A stretch of DNA of 64,000 nt. Origin: Oceaniovalibus guishaninsula JLT2003 (GTDB taxonomy: Bacteria > Pseudomonadota > Alphaproteobacteria > Rhodobacterales > Rhodobacteraceae). Of this stretch, positions 24,675-42,775 are shown one piece after another (the stretch's first letter is position 1; each line of letters opens with the position of its first letter). The notes below the pieces were generated by a model. That model searched no databases. It was not told where the DNA came from and worked only from the letters and a program-made list of their open reading frames with translations. The translations under genes and the position numbers were made by a program. Where the stretch lies: positions 124,001 through 188,000 of the forward strand of contig NZ_AMGO01000046.1 in the NCBI RefSeq assembly GCF_000299575.1. The letters are read 5' to 3'.

Positions 24675-24698
24675 CGGTGGTATCCTTGCAGATATATG

Positions 24699-24743
24699 CC
24701 CTTCGTTGGGGAAGGGTGTCCCGCCGACCGATCTAGCGGCGGG
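24699..24743 (-). other. Tandem hairpins between the rhodanese gene and serC
   Basis: Two inverted repeats: CCCTTC/GAAGGG (24699-24704 with 24711-24716) and CCCGCCG/CGGCGGG (24720-24726 with 24737-24743). They lie within the 148 bp between the rhodanese stop and the serC start. There is no T-run after either, so a classical terminator is not assured. They could end rhodanese transcription or lie in the serC leader. I see no clear promoter boxes in the gap. Confidence 0.4.
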
Positions 24744-29399: not shown

Positions 29400-31352
29400 A
29401 TGTCCCCAGACGACGACAAGCGCCTATTCGCCGGCTTGCGGCGCCGGGCCGGGCGGGTTCAGGACGCGTTGTTCTTCCGCATCCTGCGGCTGAACCGCGA
29501 CGCCAAGCGCGCCTTCTTCCTATTGACCGATACGGTGACCATGCTGGCGGCCTATGCCTTCACGCTGGCGGTGCAGGGGCTGGGTGTCGGACGGCTGGGC
29601 GAGCCGGGCAAGGAATGGCTGATCCTGGCGCTGATGGTTCTGATGACGGCGGTGATCTCGGTCTATCTCAAGATCCCCAACATCCGGCTGGTCAGCTTCG
29701 ATTCCAGGGGTTTCGGACGCATCGGGCTGATGGCGGCGCTGGTCGTGGCGACTGGCGTGGCGCTGCATTTCCTGGGCGGCGTCGCGCTGGGCATGGGGAC
29801 GTTCATCGTCTTCGGGCTGATGTTCTTCGTCTTCGCCGCCGGCGGCCGGGTCGCCATGCTGGAGGCGCTGACGCATCTTTACCGCCGCCAGCGCCCGCGA
29901 TGCCGGGTGCTGATCTATGGCGCGGGGGCCACGGGGATGCAGCTGGCGCGGGCCCTGTCCAACCATGAGAGCATCGACCCGGTGGCCTTCGTCGATGACA
30001 GCGTGACGTTGCAGGGGCTGACGGTGGCGGGCCTGCCGGTGCTGCGGCCGGTGGACATCGCCAAGATCGCCCAGGAACGCAAGGTGGACCGCGTGCTTCT
30101 GGCGATGCCGTCTCTGTCGCACCCCAAGCAGCTGCAACTGAGCCGCCGGATCGTGAAGGCGGGGCTCGAGGTTCAGGCGCTGCCATCTTTCGCGCAACTG
30201 ATCGGCGAGGAAGCGCTGATCGAGAAATTCGTGCCGGTGCGCACCGCGTCGCTGCTGGGCCGCAAGCCGGTGAACCGGCGCCGCCATCAGGGCCGCGAGA
30301 TGCTGGAAGGCAAATCGGTGCTGGTCAGCGGCGGCGGCGGGTCCATCGGATCGGAGCTGTGCAGCCAGGTGCTGGATTGCCGCCCCAAGCGGCTGGTCAT
30401 CTTCGAGCTGTCCGAACTTGCGCTTTACGAGGTCGAGCGCGCGCTGAGCCAGCGCGCCGCCGATATGGGCGCGACGCTGGTGCCGGTGCTGGGATCGGTG
30501 ACGGAAGCGCGGCTGGTGCGCCGTGTCCTGGCCGAGCACGACGTGGACGTGGTGCTGCATGCCGCGGCCTACAAGCACGTGCCGATGGTCGAGCGCAATT
30601 CGCTGGTGGGGCTGGCCAACAACGTGCTGGGCACCTGGACGCTGGCGCGCGAGGCGGCGAGCGCGGGGGTCGAGCGGTTCATCCTGATTTCGTCCGACAA
30701 GGCGGTGCGGCCCACCAACATCATGGGCGCGTCCAAGCGGCTGGCCGAACAGGTGGTGCAGGATCTGGCCGCGCGGTCGCAGAAGACGGTCTTCGCCATG
30801 GTGCGGTTCGGCAACGTCATCGGGTCGTCCGGGTCGGTCATCCCCCTGTTTCAGGAACTGATCGAACGCGGCGGCCCGGTCACGGTAACGCATCGCGACG
30901 TGACGCGGTATTTCATGACCACCGAGGAAGCGGTGGGGCTGGTGCTGGTTGCGGGATCGTTCGCCAAGGGGGGCGAGGTCTTCGTGCTGGACATGGGCAA
31001 GCCCGTGCGGATCTGGGACATCGCGCACCAGATGATCACCGATGCCAACTATACCGTGCGCGACGAGGCCAATCCCGACGGCGACATCGAGGTGATCGAG
31101 ACCGGCCTGCGTCCGGGCGAGAAGCTGCATGAGGAGCTGATCATCGGCGAGGGGCATCTGACCACCGCGCACGAGAAGATCTTCTGCGCGCACGAGGCGC
31201 ATCTGAGCGAGATCGAGGTCGCAACGGCCATCCGGTCGCTGCGCGAGGCGCTGTCCTCGGGCGACGAGGCCGCGGCGCTGCGCGTCGCCTGCCGCTGGGT
31301 CGAAGGCTATGCCGACGCGCACGAGCAGGCCACGCTGGCGCTGGGGGTCTGA
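29400..31352 (+). CDS. CapD/WbpM-type nucleotide-sugar dehydratase/epimerase, membrane-bound
   Basis: A 650-residue inner-membrane enzyme. Four hydrophobic helices lie within about residues 40 to 150, then a CoA-binding-like Rossmann domain (RVLIYGAGATGMQLARAL). The catalytic extended-SDR domain follows (SVLVSGGGGSIGSELCSQVL, AAYKHVPMVERN, LISSDKAVRPTNIMGASKRLAEQ). Relatives convert UDP-GlcNAc to 4-keto-6-deoxy intermediates for surface glycans. No strong ribosome-binding site precedes the ATG, but the next in-frame ATG is far inside. It heads the plus-strand half of an exopolysaccharide locus. Confidence 0.88.
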   Translation: MSPDDDKRLFAGLRRRAGRVQDALFFRILRLNRDAKRAFFLLTDTVTMLAAYAFTLAVQGLGVGRLGEPGKEWLILALMVLMTAVISVYLKIPNIRLVSFDSRGFGRIGLMAALVVATGVALHFLGGVALGMGTFIVFGLMFFVFAAGGRVAMLEALTHLYRRQRPRCRVLIYGAGATGMQLARALSNHESIDPVAFVDDSVTLQGLTVAGLPVLRPVDIAKIAQERKVDRVLLAMPSLSHPKQLQLSRRIVKAGLEVQALPSFAQLIGEEALIEKFVPVRTASLLGRKPVNRRRHQGREMLEGKSVLVSGGGGSIGSELCSQVLDCRPKRLVIFELSELALYEVERALSQRAADMGATLVPVLGSVTEARLVRRVLAEHDVDVVLHAAAYKHVPMVERNSLVGLANNVLGTWTLAREAASAGVERFILISSDKAVRPTNIMGASKRLAEQVVQDLAARSQKTVFAMVRFGNVIGSSGSVIPLFQELIERGGPVTVTHRDVTRYFMTTEEAVGLVLVAGSFAKGGEVFVLDMGKPVRIWDIAHQMITDANYTVRDEANPDGDIEVIETGLRPGEKLHEELIIGEGHLTTAHEKIFCAHEAHLSEIEVATAIRSLREALSSGDEAAALRVACRWVEGYADAHEQATLALGV

Positions 31353-31460
31353 CTTGCGCGCGTCGCGGGACGGTGGGCTGTTGCCGCGCCGTGCCCGCCG
31401 CGCTAGAGCCACGACTGCAACCGCCCGCGGCAGCGGGCCCGCCATGACCGGGGCAAGCCC

Positions 31461-33689
31461 ATGCGTATCCGTCGCCCGCTGAGCATCCGCGCCCCGCGCC
31501 CCGCGGCCACCGTCGCCCTTTTGCTGGCGACGACGGCCGCCTGGCCGCAATCGCGCCCGCCCGAGCCGCAGGACGGGGCGGTAGTGGGGCTGGCGGACCT
31601 GCCCGCATCGCTGGCGGTGGACCGTCCGCCGCTGAACTTCTACGGCGTCAGCGGCGCGGTGGACACGCCGACGGCGGACGGGCAGCTCGACGGCGATCTG
31701 TCCGTCACGGTGGCCAGCTTTGCCGGCATCACCCGCACGACGCTGTCGTTCCAGTTCGCCCCCCGCATCCAGGGCAGTTTCCGCTACAGCCGGTTCGCGG
31801 ACCTGAATTACGAAGGATTCGACGATTACTACGACCGCAGCTTCGACGTGTCGCTGCAACTGCTGAAGGAACGCCGCTATCTGCCGGCGCTGAAGATCGG
31901 GTTGCAGGATTTCGTCGGTACGGGCCTCTTTTCGGGCGAATACCTGGTGGCGACGAAGAATATCGGCCCCGTCAAGGTCAGCGCGGGGCTGGGCTGGGGC
32001 CGGTTCGCCGGGCTGAACGACATCGGATCGCCCTTCGGAGGCCGCGAGGAATCGGACGTCGGCCGGGGGGGCGAGTTCAACGCGGGCGAGTGGTTTCGCG
32101 GTCCGGCCTCGCCCTTTGCCAGCGTGATGTATCGCCCGACCGACCGCCTGACGCTGATGGCCGAATATTCGTCGGACGCCTATGAAGTCGAGACGGGCAA
32201 CGCACGGCTGGCTTCGGACGCCCTGTTCGAGCGGGAATCGGACTTCAACTTCGGTGCCAGCTACCGCGTAAACGAGTCGCTGGCGCTGGGGGCCTACTGG
32301 CTTTACGGGTCGGAACTGGGGGTGAACGTCAACCTGACGCTGAATCCCAACCGTCCGCCGGTGCGCGGATCGCTGGATCCGGCCCCCGGCGCCGTCATCG
32401 CGCGCCCCGACCGCGCGGCGCTGCCCGCCGCCTATACGACCGCCTGGGTGGGACGCGACAGCGTGAGAACCGCCGCGACCGAGGCGCTGGAGGAGGATCT
32501 GGACGCGCAGGGCATCACGCTGGAGGCCATCGCGCTGGACGGCGACGCGGTGACGGTGCGGGTCCGCAACCGCCGTTACAACGTCGCGGCGCAGGCCGTG
32601 GGCCGCACCGCGCGGGCGCTGACGCGGACGATGCCCCCCTCGGTCGAGACGTTCCGCATCGTGCCGTCGCCGGACGGCCTGCCCGCGTCCGAGATCGTGC
32701 TGCGCCGGTCTGATCTGGAGGCGCTGGTCAACGCGCCGGATGCCGAGGCGCAGCTTCTGGCGGTGACGGGGCTGAACGACGCGGTGCCGCTGGTCGATGC
32801 GAACGTGAACGGCGACGTCTTTCCGCGCTTCGACTGGTCCATCGGGCCGTATGTCCGCAACAGCTATTTCGACCCGGACGCGCCGTTGCGGATCGGCGCG
32901 GGGCTGCGGCTGGCCGCCAGTTACGAGCCGGTGCCGGGGCTGGTCTTTGCGGGGGCGGTGACGAAGAAGGTCGTCGGCAACCTGGACGACGCGGGCCGCG
33001 AGCAGACCGACTCGAACCTGCCCGCCGTCAGGACCAGCCTGCCCATCTACGAGCGCGAGGGCGATCCGGGGCTGGAGCGGCTGACCGGCGCCTATTACTT
33101 CCGCCCCGGCGAGAACCTTTATGCGCGCGCCACGGCCGGCTATCTGGAACGGATGTTCGCCGGCGTGTCGGGCGAGGTTCTGTGGAAGCGGGTGGACAGT
33201 CGCCTGGGGCTGGGGGCCGAGGTCAACTGGGCCAAGCAGCGCGCGCCCGATCTGGGGCTGGGGCTGGCCGATGGCAGCGACGGCGTGGACGAATACGATG
33301 TCGTGACCGGGCATCTGTCGGCCTATTACCAGTTCGACGGCGGCTATCAGGCGCAACTGGATGTCGGCCGCTATCTGGCGGGCGACGTGGGCGCGACGCT
33401 GTCCATCGACCGCACCTTCGCCAACGGCTGGACCGTCGGCGCCTTCGCCACGAAGACGGACGTGTCGTCCGAGGATTTCGGCGAGGGGTCGTTCGACAAG
33501 GGGATCCGGTTCAGTATCCCGCTGGCCTGGTTCACCGGCAGCGCCAGCCAGCGCCGCATCGGAACGACGCTGCGCCCGGTGACGCGCGATGGCGGCGCGC
33601 GGCTGTCGGTGCCGGGGCGGCTTTACGGCAAGGTCGTGGACTGGCACCGCGCCGATTTGGAAGACGAATGGGGTCGGGTATGGCGATGA
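31461..33689 (+). CDS. yjbH: YjbH-family exopolysaccharide outer-membrane protein
   Basis: A 742-residue exported protein. The signal peptide ends about residue 30 (LLATTAAWPQ). The rest is rich in alternating beta strands with many aromatic residues, ending in LEDEWGRVWR, as expected of an outer-membrane barrel. YjbH landmarks are LNFYGVSGAVDTPTADGQLDGDL near the start, FRYSRFADLNYEGF, and the conserved GLQDFVGTGLFSGEYLVATK. YjbEFGH-type proteins promote secretion of extracellular polysaccharide; the mechanism is not known. It overlaps the YjbF lipoprotein gene by 10 bp (4 bp if the next ATG is used), which argues for coupled translation. Confidence 0.87.
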   Translation: MRIRRPLSIRAPRPAATVALLLATTAAWPQSRPPEPQDGAVVGLADLPASLAVDRPPLNFYGVSGAVDTPTADGQLDGDLSVTVASFAGITRTTLSFQFAPRIQGSFRYSRFADLNYEGFDDYYDRSFDVSLQLLKERRYLPALKIGLQDFVGTGLFSGEYLVATKNIGPVKVSAGLGWGRFAGLNDIGSPFGGREESDVGRGGEFNAGEWFRGPASPFASVMYRPTDRLTLMAEYSSDAYEVETGNARLASDALFERESDFNFGASYRVNESLALGAYWLYGSELGVNVNLTLNPNRPPVRGSLDPAPGAVIARPDRAALPAAYTTAWVGRDSVRTAATEALEEDLDAQGITLEAIALDGDAVTVRVRNRRYNVAAQAVGRTARALTRTMPPSVETFRIVPSPDGLPASEIVLRRSDLEALVNAPDAEAQLLAVTGLNDAVPLVDANVNGDVFPRFDWSIGPYVRNSYFDPDAPLRIGAGLRLAASYEPVPGLVFAGAVTKKVVGNLDDAGREQTDSNLPAVRTSLPIYEREGDPGLERLTGAYYFRPGENLYARATAGYLERMFAGVSGEVLWKRVDSRLGLGAEVNWAKQRAPDLGLGLADGSDGVDEYDVVTGHLSAYYQFDGGYQAQLDVGRYLAGDVGATLSIDRTFANGWTVGAFATKTDVSSEDFGEGSFDKGIRFSIPLAWFTGSASQRRIGTTLRPVTRDGGARLSVPGRLYGKVVDWHRADLEDEWGRVWR

Positions 33690-34360
33690 AGGCGGCCACC
33701 GCGGCGGGGCTGGCACTGGCGGGTCTGCTGACCCTTGCGGCCTGTTCAAGCGGGTCCGAAGGCAGCGGCGTGGGCGAGGCGGTGTCGCTGATCGGCGCGC
33801 AGGTGCAGGCGCTGCGCGGCAAGGACACGGGCGCGCAGATCACCGCGACCGACGCGCAGTTGCGCGCCTTTCCGCAGGATCTGTTGCTGGTATCGGTGCC
33901 CGACAAGAAGGTCAGCGCCGGGCTGGTGCGGCGCAACGTCAACCGCGACACGGTGACATGGGTGACGCCGGACGGCGTGACGGTGGTCCTGCGGCAGGGG
34001 CAGGTGGTGCGCACGTCGGGCTTCGGCAACGATCTGTCGTCGGGGCAGATGGACGACATCCGCAAGGGGCGGGGCGGCACTGTGCGGGACTATTACTATC
34101 TGGGCGGCGACGAGACGGTGAAGCGGGTGCGCCTGACCTGCGATCTGGCGACGCGCGGGGCGCAGCGGGTCGTCGTCGCGGGCCTTGCCCATGCCGCCAC
34201 GCTGATCGAGGAACGCTGCACCGATGCGGCCGGTGCGTCGATCGTCAACCGCTATTGGGTGGAAGCCGGCGGGTTGATCCGCAAATCGGTGCAGTTCGTC
34301 AGTCCCGGCATCGGCTATGTCACGGTCGAGGACGTGCATGGCGGCGGCGTGCGCCGCTGA
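33680..34360 (+). CDS. yjbF: YjbF/GfcB-family polysaccharide lipoprotein
   Basis: A 226-residue lipoprotein (signal LLTLAACSSG with lipidated Cys at about 22). The mature part fits the YjbF/GfcB family: DLLLVSVPDKKVSAGLVRRNVNRDTVTWVTPDGVTVVLRQGQVVRTSGFGNDL and a C-terminal GYVTVEDV. These lipoproteins sit with YjbH in group 4 capsule and exopolysaccharide operons. Two starts are possible: 33680, with a G-rich run just upstream, or 33686, which forms an ATGA overlap with the yjbH stop. The 3' end overlaps the converging sugar transferase gene by 41 bp. Confidence 0.85.
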   Translation: MAMKAATAAGLALAGLLTLAACSSGSEGSGVGEAVSLIGAQVQALRGKDTGAQITATDAQLRAFPQDLLLVSVPDKKVSAGLVRRNVNRDTVTWVTPDGVTVVLRQGQVVRTSGFGNDLSSGQMDDIRKGRGGTVRDYYYLGGDETVKRVRLTCDLATRGAQRVVVAGLAHAATLIEERCTDAAGASIVNRYWVEAGGLIRKSVQFVSPGIGYVTVEDVHGGGVRR

Positions 34361-34967
34361 AGGCCAGCCGCCGGCCTGTCGCCGTCTCGATCATCAGCGC
34401 AAGGTCGATGCAGATCGTGCGGTGGCGCGCGTAAAGCAGATCGAGCGCGGCCTTGCGCGGCACGCAGCGGCGGCGATAGACGCGATCGGTTTCTTCGGGG
34501 GTGCGGCACCGGGCCAGCAGCCATTCCTCGTGCCGGTGAAAACGCAGGGTGGCGAGGCCGGTGATGCCGGGGCGGCTTTGCAGCACATGCGCATAAAGGT
34601 CTGGGAAATCCTCGACATAGCGGCGCAGGGGCGGGCGGGGTCCGACGAAGCTGATATCGCCGCGCAGCACGTTCCAGAGTTGCGGCAATTCGTCCAGGCG
34701 GGTGCGGCGCAGGAACCGGCCCATCGGCGTGATGCGGTCCGACTTGTCGCCGCCGGTGACGCCGCTGTCGGCGGGATCGGGGCGCATGGTGCGGAACTTC
34801 CACAAGGTGAAGGGCCGCGACGGGGCGCGCATCCGTTCCGATCCGTAAAGGACGGGGCGGCCCGATGTTGCCAGCAGCGCCAGCGCCAGCAGGGCGACGG
34901 GCAGCGCCAGAAGCAGCGCCAAAAGCAGGGCGACGGTCAGGTCCAGCGCGCGCTTGCCGGGGGTCAT
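34320..34967 (-). CDS. Undecaprenyl-phosphate sugar phosphotransferase (ExoY-like)
   Basis: A 215-residue bacterial sugar transferase that loads the first sugar-1-phosphate on undecaprenyl phosphate at the inner membrane. It has one long N-terminal hydrophobic segment (residues 9 to 35), then FTLWKFRTMRPD, RRTRLDELPQLWNVLRGDISFVGPRPP and SRPGITGLATLRFHRHEEW, the standard motifs of the catalytic domain. It lacks the four extra helices of WbaP-type enzymes. It overlaps the epimerase gene by ATGA (34964-34967). The basic tail after residue 195 is unusual. Confidence 0.9.
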   Translation of the reverse strand: MTPGKRALDLTVALLLALLLALPVALLALALLATSGRPVLYGSERMRAPSRPFTLWKFRTMRPDPADSGVTGGDKSDRITPMGRFLRRTRLDELPQLWNVLRGDISFVGPRPPLRRYVEDFPDLYAHVLQSRPGITGLATLRFHRHEEWLLARCRTPEETDRVYRRRCVPRKAALDLLYARHRTICIDLALMIETATGRRLAFSGARRRHARPRP

Positions 34968-35776
34968 CGGGCCGGATCCGCCGTTTCCGATGCCTGCGAC
35001 AGAAGGTCGGCGGCGCCCTGGTGCGGGACGGGACAGTAGCGCGACAAGGCGGTCACGTCGAGGTGGACGTGCTGGACCGCGCCGTCCGGGGCGGGGCGCC
35101 AGCGGCTTGTGCGGCCCGCGGCGGTGAAGATGTCGGCCATCGCCACGCTGCCGCGGGCCGCGACGTTCAGGACGGGCGGCAGGGACGCATCGGTGCCGGC
35201 AAGGGCCGCAAGGCAGCGCGCCAGCAACACCGGCCCGATGAAGGACCGGCGGGGCCCATCGCCATCGGCGAAACGGTCGAGCAGCGGATCGGTGACGGTG
35301 GCGAGGGACAGGAACGGCTCGGACGCGCCGGCGACGTTGGCGAGGCGCAGCGCGGTCACGTCCGGCCCGGCGGCGGCCCGTTCGGCCGCCAGCTTGGCCG
35401 CGCCATAGGCGTTGGCGGGGGCCGGCGCGGCGTCTTCGGATACCGGAACGGGGCCGGTCGCGCCGTAGACGGCCGAACTGGACAGGACGAGGATGCGGCG
35501 CGCGCCCCACGCCCTTGCCGCGTCGCGGCAGGCGACCGCGATGGCCGCGTTGGCGTCCACGTCGCGGCCGGGGCCGGGCACGACCCCCGCCATGACGATG
35601 GCGGTGGCATCGCGGGCCTGCGGCAGCGGCGGCAGCGGCGCGCCGGGCGACCAGGCGAGATCGGCGTCGCATCCGTCGCGCGCGATGGCGACGACCGGCC
35701 TGCCATCCGCCGACCAGACGCGGCGCAGACGGCGGGCGACGCGGCCCGAGGCCCCGATCAGGATCAGCGGTTTCAT
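34964..35776 (-). CDS. NAD-dependent epimerase/dehydratase family protein
   Basis: A 270-residue extended-SDR protein with the Rossmann motif LILIGASGRVARRL at the start. ILVLSSSAVYGATGP supplies the catalytic Ser/Tyr region, and NAYGAAKLAAERA supplies the YxxxK pair. It resembles GalE/RmlD-type nucleotide-sugar enzymes but is shorter at the C-terminus. The ATG at 35776 is preferred over a TTG at 35791. It is coupled by a 4-bp overlap to the sugar transferase and probably makes or modifies the sugar that enzyme uses. Confidence 0.8.
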   Translation of the reverse strand: MKPLILIGASGRVARRLRRVWSADGRPVVAIARDGCDADLAWSPGAPLPPLPQARDATAIVMAGVVPGPGRDVDANAAIAVACRDAARAWGARRILVLSSSAVYGATGPVPVSEDAAPAPANAYGAAKLAAERAAAGPDVTALRLANVAGASEPFLSLATVTDPLLDRFADGDGPRRSFIGPVLLARCLAALAGTDASLPPVLNVAARGSVAMADIFTAAGRTSRWRPAPDGAVQHVHLDVTALSRYCPVPHQGAADLLSQASETADPAR

Positions 35777-35892
35777 GGCATTCTGGCTCAAGGCAGACTT
35801 TGCGCTGTCGCGGAGGTTCCTTTATAGGCATGGGGACGTATCGCGGCACCGGGCGCGATGCAAACGGGTGCACGAGAACGGGGGCGTTACGG

Positions 35893-37023
35893 ATGATCGC
35901 GATGCGGGGACGGGCGGCACGCCTGATGACGCCGATCCTGCTTTTGTCGCTGGTCGCCGGGTGTTCCAGCCTGCCGCGCGGCGCGGCGCTGGAAAGCGAG
36001 ATCCGCCGCGACGCCGTGCAGGGCGAGTCGGGCTATGCGTTCTATCCGGTGACGCGCGGCCTGCTGCCCACCGTCGCCGCATGGCCCGCCGTCAACGTCG
36101 AGCCGTCGCATGGCTGGCCGCGACAGACGCCCGGATCGCAGGGGCAGCTTATCGCGCCGGGCGACCGGGTGACGATCCGGTTCTGGGACAGTTCGGAAAA
36201 CTCGCTGCTGACGGATTCGGGGCAGCGGTCGGCGGATCTGGGGACGATGACGGTCTCGCCCTCGGGGCGGGTGTTCATCCCGTATGTCGGCGAGGTGCGT
36301 ATCGCGGGGATGAGCGACGCGCGCGCCCGCGAGGCCATCCAGACGCAATTGCTGGAAATTTCGCCTTCCGCGCAGGTGCAGTTGCAGCTTGAACAGGGAC
36401 GGCTCAATTCCGTCGATCTGGTGTCGGGGGTCAAGTCGCCGGGCAGCTATCCGCTGATCGACCGCAACCTTTCGGTGCTTGAGGCGATCAGCCTGGGCGG
36501 CGGCGTGTCCGAACGTCTGCGCAACCCGCGCGTCAAGCTGCAACGCGGGTCGAACCTTTACGCGCGGTCGCTGACGGCGCTTTACCAGAACCCCGCGCTG
36601 GACACGCTGGTGACGGGCGGCGACAAGATCATCGTGGACGAGGACCGGCGCTATTTCCTGGCGCTGGGTGCCGCGGGCAAAGAGGATCTGGTCTATTTCA
36701 CACAGGAAGACCTGAGCGCGCTGGAAGCGATCAGCATGATCGGCGGCATCGCCGATACCCGCGCCGATCCCGAAGGGATCCTGGTGCTGCGCGAATACCC
36801 GCGCGAGGCGCTTGCGGCGGGCCTGCGCGGCCCGCGCGAGACGCGGGTGATCTTTTCCATCGACCTGACGACGGCGGACGGGCTGTTCAGCGCCAAGAAC
36901 CTTCAGATCATGCCGGGCGACGTGGTGCTGGCCACCGAAAGCCCGGTGGGATCGCTGCAACTGGCGCTGGCCATCGTCGGCGCGGGCTTCGGCACGATCC
37001 GCACGGCCGCCGCCCTGCGCTAG
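35893..37023 (+). CDS. Wza-like polysaccharide export lipoprotein
   Basis: A 376-residue outer-membrane lipoprotein of the polysaccharide export family. The lipid Cys is in LLSLVAGCSSL. The poly-export domain starts near APGDRVTIRFWDSSEN and is followed by repeated SLBB-type units (VSGVKSPGSYPLIDRNLSVLEAISLGGGVSE and LSALEAISMIGGIADTRADPEGILVLREY). It should form the exit channel for the polymer. The start at 35893 has a G-run 9 nt upstream. The gene is divergent from the epimerase/sugar transferase pair, with 116 bp between, and its stop abuts the converging ggpS gene with no intervening base. Confidence 0.9.
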   Translation: MIAMRGRAARLMTPILLLSLVAGCSSLPRGAALESEIRRDAVQGESGYAFYPVTRGLLPTVAAWPAVNVEPSHGWPRQTPGSQGQLIAPGDRVTIRFWDSSENSLLTDSGQRSADLGTMTVSPSGRVFIPYVGEVRIAGMSDARAREAIQTQLLEISPSAQVQLQLEQGRLNSVDLVSGVKSPGSYPLIDRNLSVLEAISLGGGVSERLRNPRVKLQRGSNLYARSLTALYQNPALDTLVTGGDKIIVDEDRRYFLALGAAGKEDLVYFTQEDLSALEAISMIGGIADTRADPEGILVLREYPREALAAGLRGPRETRVIFSIDLTTADGLFSAKNLQIMPGDVVLATESPVGSLQLALAIVGAGFGTIRTAAALR

Positions 37024-38499
37024 CTAGGACGACGCGGCGAAGCCGGCCATCTGGTCCTTGGCCCAGGCGCGGATGTCGTATTTGCGGATCGTCGCGCGCA
37101 TCTGCCGCATCCGTTCGCGCCGTTCTTCTTCGGGCATAGCCAGCGCCTGAAGCAGCGCGCGGTCCATCGAGCGATACGAGAACGGGTTGGCCAGCACCGC
37201 CGATCCCATCTCGATCGCGGCGCCGGCGAATTCGGACAGCACCAGCACGCCGTCGCCATCGGTGCGGCAGGCGGCAAATTCCTTGGCGACCAGGTTCATC
37301 CCGTCGGCCAGCGGCGTGATCCAGGCGATGTCGGCGGCGACGTAATAGGACACCAGTTCGTCGAAGGGGATGGCGCGGCTGATCAGGGTCACGGGCTGCC
37401 ACGCGAAGGTGCCGAAGCGGCCGTTGATCCGGCCCGCCGTCTGTTCGATGCGGTTCTGGATGCCCTCGTAGACCGACATGTTGCGGTTGGCGCTGACCGA
37501 CACGTGCATCAAGCGCAGCTTGCCGCGCAGGTCGGGATTGTCGTCCAGGATCCGCTCGAAGCTCATCAACTGGTCGGTGCCGCCCTTGGTGTAGTCGGTG
37601 CGCCCGACCGACAGGATCATCGCGCAATCGCCCAGTTCGCGGCGGATCGCGGCGGCGGCGTCGCGGGTCTCGGGCAGGTCGGCCTTCGATTCGATGTAAT
37701 CCACATCGACCCCGACCGGCGAGGCCAGAACGCGCACATCGTGGTCCCCCCATCGCAGCGAGTTGGCGACGCGCCGTTCGCTGAGCGCCGCGCGATCGAC
37801 GATGAAGTCGGGATTGACCGGCTGTCGGGGCGCGGTATCGACGTCGAACAGGCTTTCGACGACGCCGATGAAGTTGGCGGCATAGCGCGGGATGTGGAAG
37901 CCCACGACATCGCAGGCCAGCAGGCTTTCGACGATCTCGCGCCGCCAGGGCAGGACGTTGAACATGTCGGCGGACGGAAACGGCGTGTGGTGGAAGAAGC
38001 TGATCCGCAGGTCGGGGCGCAGCCTGCGCAGATAGCCGGGCACCAGCCACAGGTTGTAATCGTGCACCCAGACGACCGCGCCCTGCGCCGCTTCGGCGGC
38101 GGCGGCTTCGGCGAAGGCCCAGTTCACTTCGCGGAAGGTGGGCCAGTCCACGGGGTCGTAATCGTATTTTTCCTTGAAGGAATGGAGGATCGGCCAGAAC
38201 GCTTCCTTGCTGGTGACATGATAGAAGCTGCGAACCTGATCCTCGGTCAGGGGCAGGCGGCTGACGGAATAGGCGCCATAGCTGTCCTCGATCTCGACCA
38301 CGCGGTCGAAGCCCGGATCGGACGGATCCTCGGCCAGCTTCCACGCGACCCAGGCCCCGTGATCGACGCGCCCGAAGAACCCCTTGAGCGTCGGGACGAT
38401 GCCGTTGGGGCTGGCATTCTCGCGAAACTCGATACGACCGTCGACCTCGACTTCCTCGTAGGGTTGGCGGTGATAGACGATGACCAGATCGCTGGGCAT
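37024..38499 (-). CDS. ggpS: Glucosylglycerol-phosphate synthase (GT20 family)
   Basis: A 491-residue retaining glycosyltransferase expected to join ADP-glucose and sn-glycerol 3-phosphate. It belongs to the same family as trehalose-6-phosphate synthase OtsA, but residue patterns match Ggp[13 protein letters not shown] at the start, SPNG (30-33) where OtsA has [21 protein letters not shown] (92-108), WVHDYNLWL (144-152), [17 protein letters not shown] (170-186) and GRTDYTKG. The C-terminus has [15 protein letters not shown] and LSEFAGAA. No phosphatase domain is attached. It is the last gene of the gpsA - HAD phosphatase - ggpS unit, 10 bp after the phosphatase. It may be mis-named otsA by similarity alone. 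Confidence 0.85.
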
Positions 38500-38509
38500 G
38501 GACGCTCCT

Positions 38510-39274
38510 TCAGGGGGTATCGGACCAGAGGGCGGGGTGCAGGTCGAGAACGCGGATCGCTTCCATGATGCCGCCCGCGCCCCTGGCTTCAGCGATGTGA
38601 ACGTGGCGCAGGGGCGCGACGCGATCGACCAGCGCCTGTTCGGCCCCGCCCACGACGACGGCCGGAAGGCCGCATTCGATCATCGACAGGTCGTTCAGCG
38701 TGTCGCCGGCGGCCAGCACCCGGTCGGGCGGCACGCCCAGATGCGCGACCAGCCGCTTGAGCGAGGGGCCCTTGCTGATGCCGGGCGGCAGGACGTCGAA
38801 ATAGCGGTTGTCGGAAATCAGATGGTCCAGCCCCAGCGCGTCGATCCGGTCGATGGCGTCCCTCTCGAAGGTCGCCGCATCGAGGTCGTAGCTGACGCGA
38901 TAGCGAAAGTCGGTCGATTGCAGCGTCAGGCCGGGTGCATCGCGCAGCGCGTCGCGCACACGTTCGCCCGCATCGTCCCAGGCCGCCGCGATCTCGGCCT
39001 CCAGCTCGGGCATCGGGGATTGCATGCCGTCGCGCATCCGGGCGATGGTGGTGCCCACGTCGCCGACGACGTAATCGGGCCACGGCACGCCGTCCTTGCA
39101 CAGATCGGCGATGAAGCCCGGATCGCGCCCGGTGACGAAGATAAGGCCAATACTGTCGCGGTTCTCCTCGATCCAGTCATAGAGCGTGCGCCGATCCTCG
39201 GCCGAGCCGCCGAGGAACGTGCCGTCCAGATCCGTCGCCAGCACGAAGGTCTTGCCGCCCAGTTCGTCATCCAT
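38510..39274 (-). CDS. HAD-IIB phosphatase, probable glucosylglycerol-3-phosphatase
   Basis: A 254-residue sucrose-phosphatase-type HAD hydrolase. Motifs: DLDGT (15-19, nucleophile Asp15), FVTGRD (46-51), the Lys in ISKGPSLKRL, and GDTLNDLSMIE. In several proteobacteria the same domain is the N-terminal part of the fused enzyme GgpPS. Here it is a separate gene, 10 bp before ggpS and in the same order as the fusion, with a combined length (254 + 491) close to that of the fused protein. It should release glucosylglycerol from its phosphate. A purine-rich run (AAAGGAC) lies 11 nt upstream of the ATG. Confidence 0.78.
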   Translation of the reverse strand: MDDELGGKTFVLATDLDGTFLGGSAEDRRTLYDWIEENRDSIGLIFVTGRDPGFIADLCKDGVPWPDYVVGDVGTTIARMRDGMQSPMPELEAEIAAAWDDAGERVRDALRDAPGLTLQSTDFRYRVSYDLDAATFERDAIDRIDALGLDHLISDNRYFDVLPPGISKGPSLKRLVAHLGVPPDRVLAAGDTLNDLSMIECGLPAVVVGGAEQALVDRVAPLRHVHIAEARGAGGIMEAIRVLDLHPALWSDTP

Positions 39275-39292
39275 TCCGTCCGTCCTTTCCGG

Positions 39293-40408
39293 TCATAGAA
39301 CCCGCGTGCCGAACGGGTGGTCGAAATAGAGGCCCATCGCCTTCGGTTCGGCCTCGATCGGGCGGGACCACAGATCGCGGAAGGTCTGCCGCAGATCGGC
39401 GCCGCGATGCAGAACGTCATGGACCGCCTCGCAGATGGGCAGCGAGACGCCGATGCGCCGGGCCAGATCGACGACCGAGATGGCGTTCACCTCGCCCTCG
39501 ACCACGACAGGGGCGCCGTCGAAGCATTCGGCGCGCGGCAACCCGCGGCCCAGTTGCATCCCCAGGCTCATGTTGCGGGACGTGGCGGACGAACAGGTCA
39601 GCGTCAGGTCGCCCGCGCCCGACAGGCCGGTGACGGTTTCGCGGCGGCCGCCCAGAACCTCGGCCAGGGTCTTCATCTCGTCCATGCCGCGGGTGATGAG
39701 GGCGGCGCGGGTGTTTTCGGCGAACCCCGCGCCCGACATCATGCCGCAGGCAATGGCGATGACGTTCTTGACCGCGCCGCCAATTCCCACGCCGACCAGA
39801 TCGTCGCTGATATAGGGCCGGAATGTCGCCCCGCTGAGCGAGACGGCCAGCCGCGCGGCGGGGCTTTGCGCGGGATCCAGACGGTCGCGATAGCGGAAGG
39901 CGAAGGCGACGGTCGCGGCGGTGGGATGGTCCAGCACCGTTTCGCGCGCGAAGGTCGGCCCCGACAGCGCGCCGACCGGATGGCCCGGCAATTCCTCGCG
40001 CGCGACCTCGCCCAGAAGCAGGCCGGTCTGCGCCTCGATCCCCTTGGCGCAAAGGGCCAGCGGCACGGCCTGCGGCAGATGCGGGCGCATCGCGGCGCAG
40101 ATTTCGCGCAGCGTGACCGACGGCGTGACGATCAGCACGGCCTGCGCGTCGCGCAGGGCGGCGGCCATGTCGGTGGTGGCGGCGATGCCCGGAGGCAGGG
40201 GCAGGCCGGCCAGATAAACGGGATTTTCCGCGCGTTCCGTAATGGCCCGCGCGACATCGGCATCGCGGCCCCAAAGCGCCACCTCGCGGCCCGCGCGGCG
40301 CGCGACGCTGGCCAGCGCGGTGCCCCAGGCACCCGCGCCGATGACGGCGATCCGGTCATAGGGACGGACCTGCGGTCTGGCCCGCGGCGAAGGGTCGGTG
40401 TCAGGCAT
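39293..40408 (-). CDS. gpsA: NAD(P)H-dependent glycerol-3-phosphate dehydrogenase
   Basis: A 371-residue enzyme that reduces dihydroxyacetone phosphate to sn-glycerol 3-phosphate. The nucleotide-binding motif is GAGAWG (24-29). ALCAKGIE, LSGPTFARE, the catalytic Lys in GGAVKNVIAIA and TGLSGAGDLTLTC are all in place. It is 18 bp upstream of the HAD phosphatase gene, so it likely feeds the osmolyte route as well as phospholipid synthesis. ATG 40408 is used; a GTG at about residue 14 is also possible, since the first 18 residues extend past the usual family start. Confidence 0.93.
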   Translation of the reverse strand: MPDTDPSPRARPQVRPYDRIAVIGAGAWGTALASVARRAGREVALWGRDADVARAITERAENPVYLAGLPLPPGIAATTDMAAALRDAQAVLIVTPSVTLREICAAMRPHLPQAVPLALCAKGIEAQTGLLLGEVAREELPGHPVGALSGPTFARETVLDHPTAATVAFAFRYRDRLDPAQSPAARLAVSLSGATFRPYISDDLVGVGIGGAVKNVIAIACGMMSGAGFAENTRAALITRGMDEMKTLAEVLGGRRETVTGLSGAGDLTLTCSSATSRNMSLGMQLGRGLPRAECFDGAPVVVEGEVNAISVVDLARRIGVSLPICEAVHDVLHRGADLRQTFRDLWSRPIEAEPKAMGLYFDHPFGTRVL

Positions 40409-40498
40409 TCCGTCCAGTTCGTTTCGCCCCGACGCCGGGGGCCGCGGTGCCGCGCACGGGCCGGACCGCGAAAATCCGGTCGGCACCCCTGCGGGCAT

Positions 40499-40572
40499 TG
40501 GAGGCGAGTACCGGAATCGAACCGGTGTACACGGATTTGCAATCCGCTGCGTAACCACTCCGCCAACTCGCC
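40499..40572 (-). tRNA. tRNA-Cys (GCA)
   Basis: A 74-nt tRNA with encoded CCA. Acceptor GGCGAGT with ACTCGCC, D arm GGCGGAGTGGTTACGC, anticodon loop ATTGCAAAT giving GCA, and T arm CCGGTTCGATTCCGG. It lies between gpsA and pcm. Confidence 0.97.
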
Positions 40573-40694
40573 GCGCAGCGTCGCCCCGTGTCTTAACGGT
40601 GCCGCACCAGGGCCGCAAGGCGCGTTTGCGCGTTGCCGGGGCAGGGCGGGTGTGGCACACGGACGGCAAGCGATCTGGACAGATGGGTTGGGTC

Positions 40695-41348
40695 ATGGCC
40701 GATTACGCACTCCGCCGCACGATGATGGTCGATACGCAGGTCCGCACGGCGGACGTGACCAGCTTTCCGCTTCTCGATGCGATGCTGCGGATTCCGCGCG
40801 AACGCTTCGTGCCGGACGCCCTGCGCGAAACCGCCTATGTCGGCGAGAACATTCCGCTGGGCCCGCGGCGCGTCGTGCTGGAACCGCGCACGCAGGCCAA
40901 GCTGCTGGAGGCGCTGGACATCCAGCCCGGCGATCTGGTGCTCGATCTGGCGCCGGGGCTGGGCTATTCGACGGCGGTGATCGCGGTTCTGGCCGAGGCC
41001 GTCGTCGCGGTCGAACCCGATGCCGACATGGCGCGCGAGGCGCAGGCGGCGCTGGTCGAGGTCGGCGCCGACAATGCCACGGTCGAGACGGGCGATCCGA
41101 CCCTGGGCGCCCCGGCGCACGGCCCCTACGACGCGATCGTCGTCGAAGGCGCGGTGCAGCGGGTGCCGGATTCGGTTATCGACCAGCTGGCCGAGGGCGG
41201 GCGGATCGGATGCATCTTCATGCAGGGATCGCTGGGCGTCGCCCGCGTCGGAGTGAAAACCGGCGGGCAGGTCAGCTGGCGCTATGCGTTCAATGCCAGC
41301 GCCCCGGTTCTGGAAGGATTCGATGTCATGCCGGAGTTCACGCTGTGA
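40695..41348 (+). CDS. pcm: Protein-L-isoaspartate O-methyltransferase family
   Basis: A 217-residue SAM-dependent methyltransferase. The start MADYALRRTMMVDTQVRTADVT is typical of the Rhodobacterales form, and the SAM-binding motif is VLDLAPGLGYSTAV. The enzyme methylates isoaspartyl residues in damaged proteins, but several residues of the E. coli substrate site (GSGYQTA context) differ, so activity is not certain. The second ATG at 40695 was chosen; an ATG at 40683 is 4 codons upstream. It overlaps the TolC-family gene by GTGA (41345-41348). Confidence 0.82.
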   Translation: MADYALRRTMMVDTQVRTADVTSFPLLDAMLRIPRERFVPDALRETAYVGENIPLGPRRVVLEPRTQAKLLEALDIQPGDLVLDLAPGLGYSTAVIAVLAEAVVAVEPDADMAREAQAALVEVGADNATVETGDPTLGAPAHGPYDAIVVEGAVQRVPDSVIDQLAEGGRIGCIFMQGSLGVARVGVKTGGQVSWRYAFNASAPVLEGFDVMPEFTL

Positions 41349-42775
41349 CCTGCCTTGGCCGATTGAGAACGGGCGTGGCCGCGCTGATGCTGGTCGCGGC
41401 GCCGCTGGGGGCGAGTGCCGAAAGCCTGTCCGACGCGCTGATCATGGCCTATCGCAACAGCGGTCTGCTGGAAAATAACCGCGCGACGCTGCGGGCGGCG
41501 GACGAGGACGTGGCGCAGGCGGTGGCGGCTTTGCGCCCGGTCATCACCTATACCGCGCAGATGGCGCGCCAGTATGCGTTTCCCAACGACCGCACGACCG
41601 GCGAAACCAGCATCGGCGGTCTGACCATCGCCGGGCGGCGGATCACCGACACCGAGGAAACGGTGGCCAGCATGTCGCTGGCGGCGGACCTGCTGCTTTG
41701 GGACGGCGGCGCGGCGCGGCTGGCCATCGATTCGGCCAAGGAGCTGGTCCTTGTCGCGCGGCAGGGCCTGATCGCCGTCGAACAGATCGTTCTGCTGAAC
41801 GCCGTGGATGCCTTCGTTTCGGTCCGCGAGGCCGAGGCGCTGGTCAACCTGCGGCAGAACAACGTCCGACTGATCGACCAGCAACTTCAGGCGGCGCAGG
41901 ACAGGTTCGAGGTGGGCGAGGTGACGCGGACGGACGTGGCCTTGGCCGAGTCGCGTCTGGCCTCGGGGCGCAGCGATCTGGCGGCGGCGCTGGGCAATCT
42001 GGAAATCGCACGCGCCGAATACCGCGAACAGATCGGCCAGTTGCCGGGGAACCTCACGCCGCCGGGCAATCTGCCGCAAACCGCGCCGTCGCTGGACGCG
42101 GCGCAGGCGGTGGCGGTGCGCACCCATCCCGACATCCAGCGCGACCAGCGGCTTGTCACCGTGGCGGAACTGTCCATAGCGCGGGCCAAGGCGCAGATGA
42201 AGCCGCGCATCTCGGCGCAGGCGCGGGTGGCCATCGACGAGAACTATGAGGAAAATGCATCGGTCGGTATCGTCATGACCGGGCCGATCTATCGCGGCGG
42301 GCAGCTTACGTCGCTATACCGGCAGGCCATCGCGCAGCGCGACGCAAATCGCGGCGACCTTTACGAGACGATCAACGATATCGAGCGTCAGGTCGCCACG
42401 GCATGGGCGCGGTTGGAAGTGGCCCGCGCCCGGATCAGCGCGACCGATCTGGAAATTCGCGCCGCGACCGTCGCCTTCGAGGGGTTGCAGGAGGAGGCGC
42501 AGCTTGGCGCGCGCACCACGCTGGACGTTCTGGATGCCGAACAGGATCTGCTGAATGCGCGCGTGGACGCCATCCAGGCCCGCACGACCGAGGTGCTGGC
42601 CGTCTATGCTGTGCTGGCGGCGATGGGGTTGCTGACGGTGGATCACCTGAACCTCGGCATCGTCACCTACGATCCGTCGGCCTATTACGATGCCGTGTCG
42701 GATGCGCCGATCCACCGCATCAGCCCGCAGGGTGCCAAGCTGGACGCGTTGCTGCGCAGTTTGGGGCGCGAATAG
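41345..42775 (+). CDS. TolC-family outer-membrane efflux protein
   Basis: A 476-residue protein starting with GTG, with a signal peptide ending about GASAES. Two repeats of long helices and beta strands carry TolC-family landmarks (LADLLLWDGG, AQDRFEVGEVTRTDVALAESRLA, and in the second half GPIYRGGQLTSLYRQA, EEAQLGARTTLDVLDAEQDLLNA). It forms the trimeric exit channel for tripartite efflux or type I secretion. No inner-membrane partner is adjacent. The pcm-tolC order with overlap is common in this group of bacteria, as is the following PopZ-like gene. GGAG lies 10 nt before the GTG. Confidence 0.9.
   Translation: MTCLGRLRTGVAALMLVAAPLGASAESLSDALIMAYRNSGLLENNRATLRAADEDVAQAVAALRPVITYTAQMARQYAFPNDRTTGETSIGGLTIAGRRITDTEETVASMSLAADLLLWDGGAARLAIDSAKELVLVARQGLIAVEQIVLLNAVDAFVSVREAEALVNLRQNNVRLIDQQLQAAQDRFEVGEVTRTDVALAESRLASGRSDLAAALGNLEIARAEYREQIGQLPGNLTPPGNLPQTAPSLDAAQAVAVRTHPDIQRDQRLVTVAELSIARAKAQMKPRISAQARVAIDENYEENASVGIVMTGPIYRGGQLTSLYRQAIAQRDANRGDLYETINDIERQVATAWARLEVARARISATDLEIRAATVAFEGLQEEAQLGARTTLDVLDAEQDLLNARVDAIQARTTEVLAVYAVLAAMGLLTVDHLNLGIVTYDPSAYYDAVSDAPIHRISPQGAKLDALLRSLGRE

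Follow-up and report, generated by a model that had tools for sequence, protein, structure and literature searches.

We analysed a 64,000-nucleotide stretch of the genome of Oceaniovalibus guishaninsula JLT2003 (contig NZ_AMGO01000046.1, positions 124,001 to 188,000; hereafter the window). Its minus strand carries three adjacent genes, gpsA, a gene for a HAD-type phosphatase and ggpS, which very likely form an operon for the osmolyte glucosylglycerol and include the only gpsA found in this genome (Table 1). They are read in the order gpsA, HAD, ggpS, and the coordinates of the open reading frames (ORFs) agree with the tight spacing reported in a preliminary description of the locus, with gaps of 18 bp and then 10 bp. 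The motif AAGGAG in front of ggpS, a probable ribosome-binding site, overlaps the stop codon of the HAD gene (38510-38512). The longest gpsA ORF called by the tool starts at 40696 and encodes 467 residues; because a start there would run through the tRNA-Cys gene, the start at 40408 is the likelier one. A simple scan of positions 36900-40800 yielded no promoter-like and no terminator-like sites.

Table 1. Features of the gpsA-HAD-ggpS locus (positions counted from the first nucleotide of the window)
Feature	Position	Strand	Remarks
Operon-type gpsA, NAD(P)H glycerol-3-phosphate dehydrogenase	39293..40408	-	371 aa; PF01210/PF07479
HAD phosphatase, S6PP family, probable glucosylglycerol-phosphate phosphatase	38510..39274	-	254 aa; PF05116 139 bits
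ggpS, glucosylglycerol-phosphate synthase (GT20, PF00982)	37024..38499	-	491 aa; TIGR02398 above cut-off
AAGGAG, probable ribosome-binding site of ggpS	38505..38510	-	sequence reading; putative function
tRNA-Cys, upstream of gpsA, same strand	40499..40572	-	neighbour, outside conserved unit

The GT20 protein scored 652.2 bits against TIGR02398, the curated equivalog model of GgpS (cut-off 569), but 410.3 bits against TIGR02400, the model of OtsA (cut-off 564.85). In a GT20 tree of 39 rows, a branch with a support of 100 sets seven OtsA-like rows apart, and the window protein groups with GgpS, separate and fused forms alike. The OtsA-like rows were labelled by approximately 30% identity, with one of them checked by family, and the GgpS rows do not include experimentally verified sequences, the link to verified enzymes being TIGR02398. 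The motifs that the preliminary description had quoted as GgpS rather than OtsA residues are present in the translation, and in the GT20 alignment the OtsA-like rows read, for example, YYNGYANRTLWPLFHYR where the window protein has other residues. The GT20 protein is thus a GgpS by family, as had been proposed. Trehalose synthesis by this protein was considered and rejected, since its score against the OtsA model lies below the cut-off.

The sucrose-phosphatase-type assignment of the HAD protein was likewise borne out by its Pfam match (Table 1). A comparison with the N-terminal regions of five fused HAD-GgpS proteins, of the kind that had been suggested, gave identities of 39-45%, and DLDGT, TGR, SKG and GDTLND, presumably the HAD motifs, were all found in the alignment. 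Models of glucosylglycerol-phosphatase gave no match at an E-value of 0.001 and S6PP models matched. Judged by its relatives, it is a probable glucosylglycerol-phosphate phosphatase. Together, the HAD and GgpS proteins amount to 745 residues (254+491), close to the 752 of one fused protein (L296), and follow the same order, again as described earlier. The window has separate ORFs, however, and none of the 80 loci considered below encodes a fused protein. The term 'split GgpPS' used in the preliminary description suits the layout; separate and fused forms fall on two sides of a branch in the GT20 tree, which does not give their order of origin.

The fused GgpPS proteins of Stenotrophomonas, Marinobacter and others, as presented in excerpts of two articles (PMC10873239, PMC3653106), share with our locus the order HAD phosphatase then GgpS, whereas here the two are separate genes preceded by gpsA. 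In Marinobacter, a glucosylglycerol phosphorylase gene follows ggpPS (excerpt of PMC10873239). Synthase and phosphatase are separate genes also in cyanobacteria (ggpS and ggpP; excerpt of PMC6753628), but the HAD protein of the window differs from GgpP in the models that it matches. A figure legend of the same article lists gpsA with the genes that various cyanobacteria carry co-localised with ggpS and gghA.

Conservation of the layout was assessed in the best 80 of 209 loci found by ggpS in a scan of named genomes, mainly Rhodobacterales with some Hoeflea, Cohaesibacter and others. The HAD gene stands directly before ggpS in 80 of 80 loci, and operon-type gpsA stands before HAD in 70, with short gaps. 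The adjacency of the three genes is far beyond chance, and the position of gpsA at the operon head, to which the preliminary description had drawn attention, is conserved. At L116 the contig ends 691 bp before HAD, which may account for the missing gpsA; only an ancestral-type gpsA was found in that genome. No common upstream gene was recognised by eye among the mechanically called ORFs of 11 operons lacking gpsA; L083 has a GAPDH-like ORF. On plasmid pDSHI02 of Dinoroseobacter shibae and on a plasmid of Falsirhodobacter algicola, the block is identical in genes, order and strand, and RefSeq names ggpS there; D. shibae also has a chromosomal gpsA beside tsaD. In a family sample of 394 genomes, 67 carry ggpS (E up to 1e-100) and 63 carry operon-type gpsA (identity 52% or more, the next best match having 48%). 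The two genes adjoin on the same contig in 59 of the 67 ggpS carriers and lie on two contigs in one (G330); the other seven have no operon-type gpsA, and none of these seven is gpsA-less. Outside alphaproteobacteria-like kin, 12 of 398 genomes of a phylum sample passed an E-value of 1e-120, five of them with fused forms. Glucosylglycerol synthesis is known best from cyanobacteria and from a few heterotrophs whose enzymes are fused, and the block would represent an overlooked three-gene form. Partial coverage of the literature on glucosylglycerol, GgpS and Rhodobacterales gpsA gave no earlier report of gpsA-HAD-ggpS, although one may exist.

The genome of the window contains a single PF07479 gene, the gpsA of the operon. 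The same holds for 13 of 13 congeners, in which this gene lies on the ggpS contig, within approximately 3 kb of ggpS and with HAD in between. In relatives, an ancestral gpsA, 36-41% identical to the operon gpsA, is located between tsaD and a gene for an EVE-domain protein, and the distance from tsaD to the EVE gene is 899-2017 bp in the 50 loci in which tsaD, EVE and ancestral gpsA were all found. No gpsA match was present at the tsaD locus in any of the 14 genomes of the window's genus; in 12 of them, 0-3 bp separate the tsaD match from the EVE gene, which was not detected in the other two. The ancestral, tsaD-linked gpsA has been lost in this genus, where no gpsA other than the operon copy was found. 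A gpsA match at tsaD was also missing from 21 of 21 further single-gpsA genomes, where tsaD and EVE are separated by 18-423 bp in 17 cases and by 1896 bp in one, with EVE undetected in three. The unequal lengths of the remaining intervals point to the disappearance of one or two genes.

The two types were compared in a midpoint-rooted GpsA tree of 110 proteins, constructed by a quick method. The operon type makes up one side of a branch with a support of 100 (55 rows: 45 from operons, five from the genus, three from genomes without ggpS, and two of three copies from operons of other families), and the family's tsaD-linked type makes up one side of another branch (31 rows, support 100). The third copy from another family, the only gpsA of its genome (G074; locus L183, 7187-8158), lies near HAD-ggpS but outside the operon-type group. 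Because of this placement, gpsA seems to have joined HAD-ggpS separately in that lineage, which we regard as possible. Residues K122, K214, D267, R278 and N279, which we take to be catalytic, are invariant in 80 of 80 GpsA proteins of both types in the family set alignment. Among the 63 operon-type carriers, 39 have two PF07479 genes and 24 have no other. In a count by type of 45 genomes (45 of 47 loci taken from the best 80), 16 have the operon type only, 19 have both and 10 have the ancestral type only. A contrast of this kind occurs within the genus Tranquillimonas, where T. alkanivorans has both types and T. rosea has the operon type only.

In three genomes (G020, G191 and G373), operon-type gpsA is the sole gpsA and the tsaD site is empty, and ggpS was not matched, nor was HAD or ggpS in the fetched neighbourhood of gpsA. 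The G020 copy clusters with those of two ggpS carriers in the GpsA tree (support 99). Because these genomes keep operon-type gpsA alone, the gene seems to serve a need beyond glucosylglycerol. Most simply, these lineages would first have lost the ancestral gpsA and later ggpS and HAD, and would have retained the captured gpsA because they needed it.

More broadly, we find it probable, with less confidence than the function proposed for the window, that in marine Rhodobacterales and related bacteria the operon gpsA has repeatedly replaced the ancestral housekeeping copy. The operon would then have become indispensable for membrane lipids, some lineages would have dropped the osmolyte genes and kept gpsA, and membrane and osmolyte synthesis would compete for one product. 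When the state of the tsaD site (gpsA lost or kept) was placed on a tree of TsaD, a HemY-like protein and the EVE protein, 14 changes were counted, eight of them forced by starred branches. This tree and a TsaD-only tree covered 76 loci, including five of the 14 genomes of the window's genus; L178 (no tsaD), L288 (contig end), G330 (tsaD not found) and L269 and L287 (no gpsA at tsaD, second gpsA elsewhere) were left out of both. Because the ancestral tsaD site is conserved, the pattern argues for losses rather than gains.

Several points weigh against this view and against the reading of the window given below. On the TsaD-only tree, the same label gave 15 changes with only two forced by starred branches; the three-gene tree was made by a quick method, and counts of change are blind to loss versus gain. 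Two genomes (G319 and G164) have no gpsA at tsaD yet carry an ancestral-type or second gpsA elsewhere, and therefore an empty tsaD site alone is no proof of loss. The single-gpsA carriers include G330, which is 87% complete, in 450 contigs and without a tsaD match. A comparison of genomes at least 90% complete speaks for replacement, as the ancestral type is missing in 23 of 62 carriers compared with 14 of 285 non-carriers (Fisher p 1.3e-10), but this test sets a Pfam count against a tblastn count and ignores how the genomes are related. The 14 non-carriers comprise 12 without any GpsA-like match and two with weak matches only, and as 12 of the 347 near-complete family genomes thus have no such match, an alternative source of glycerol 3-phosphate may exist. 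Weak GpsA-like matches only were recorded for G027 and G487.

For the window itself, we consider it very likely, judging from sequence and gene context, that the block is a glucosylglycerol operon whose sole gpsA also supplies the glycerol 3-phosphate of phospholipids. The glucosylglycerol part of this proposal is supported by the families of the proteins and by their context. GpsA would convert dihydroxyacetone phosphate to glycerol 3-phosphate, GgpS would join it to the glucose of ADP-glucose supplied by GlgC (a glgC scoring above the cut-off is present in all 14 genomes of the genus), and the HAD enzyme would remove the phosphate from the resulting glucosylglycerol phosphate to give glucosylglycerol, presumably from one transcript. 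The 'own precursor supply' of the preliminary description fits relatives with two gpsA genes (39 of 63, e.g. Dinoroseobacter shibae), in which the copy in the operon seems to be dedicated to this pathway. It does not fit the present genome, where gpsA is no extra copy. Because the ancestral gpsA is lost and the operon copy is the only one found, the operon gpsA in the window's genus very probably also feeds phospholipid synthesis and may be essential. A membrane precursor would then probably come from a salt-stress operon alone, and the response to salt would compete with lipid synthesis for one enzyme. The reactions of GgpS and the phosphatase are established in Synechocystis, and in cyanobacteria these enzymes are already produced when salt is low but become active only after a salt shock (excerpt of the review PMC6753628). 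If such regulation held here, salt-free transcription could, conjecturally, serve the membranes while glucosylglycerol waits for salt.

It could be argued that the operon makes glucosylglycerol and that its GpsA serves that pathway alone, while glycerol kinase or a dehydrogenase not yet recognised provides the glycerol 3-phosphate of phospholipids. The near-complete family genomes without a GpsA-like match lend this idea some substance, as do four such or similar genomes that also lack PF07479 (G021, G027, G030 and G033). We nevertheless find it unlikely, given the three genomes in which operon-type gpsA occurs alone and ggpS was not matched, and the invariance of the five presumed catalytic residues in both GpsA types. 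The product could also be questioned: GT20 and HAD might make another phosphorylated glucoside, such as trehalose, glucosylglycerate or sucrose, with gpsA beside them by chance. The HAD protein matches sucrose-phosphatase models, with scores below the NCBIfam cut-offs for named phosphatases, its best relative of known structure is a sucrose-phosphatase, and the PDB matches of the GT20 protein are mostly trehalose-phosphate synthases. Against this stand the GgpS model score above and the OtsA model score below the respective cut-offs, and the recurrence of gpsA beside HAD-ggpS in the loci surveyed. Furthermore, a second GT20 gene on another contig of the window genome fits OtsA best (493 bits against TIGR02400, itself below the cut-off). 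A glucoside other than glucosylglycerol is therefore very improbable.

The single gpsA could in principle be an assembly artefact, with the ancestral gene hidden in a gap, as the assembly of the window genome comprises 68 contigs. However, the EVE gene directly adjoins tsaD within a single contig, and all 13 congeners agree, including one in two contigs and one in five, so that we give this explanation hardly any credence.

A conserved role of the tRNA-Cys gene upstream of gpsA, as promoter or as landing site, was considered and rejected, because no tRNA was found in the 1.5 kb preceding gpsA in any of the 13 congeners. A phage origin was rejected as well, as a phage collection gave no near match. 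Downstream, an exopolysaccharide cluster (Polysacc_synt_2, YjbH, YjbF, sugar transferase and polysaccharide export) occupies 29400-37023, and its last gene ends at 37023, abutting the ggpS stop at 37024. An ARAGORN call of tRNA-Pro at 32351-32442, on the opposite strand within the YjbH gene and without Rfam support, is probably false. On the other side, genes for a PCMT methyltransferase and an outer membrane efflux protein (40683-42775, plus strand) diverge from the operon. A serC leader RNA was found at 24675-24726 on the minus strand (67.8 bits).
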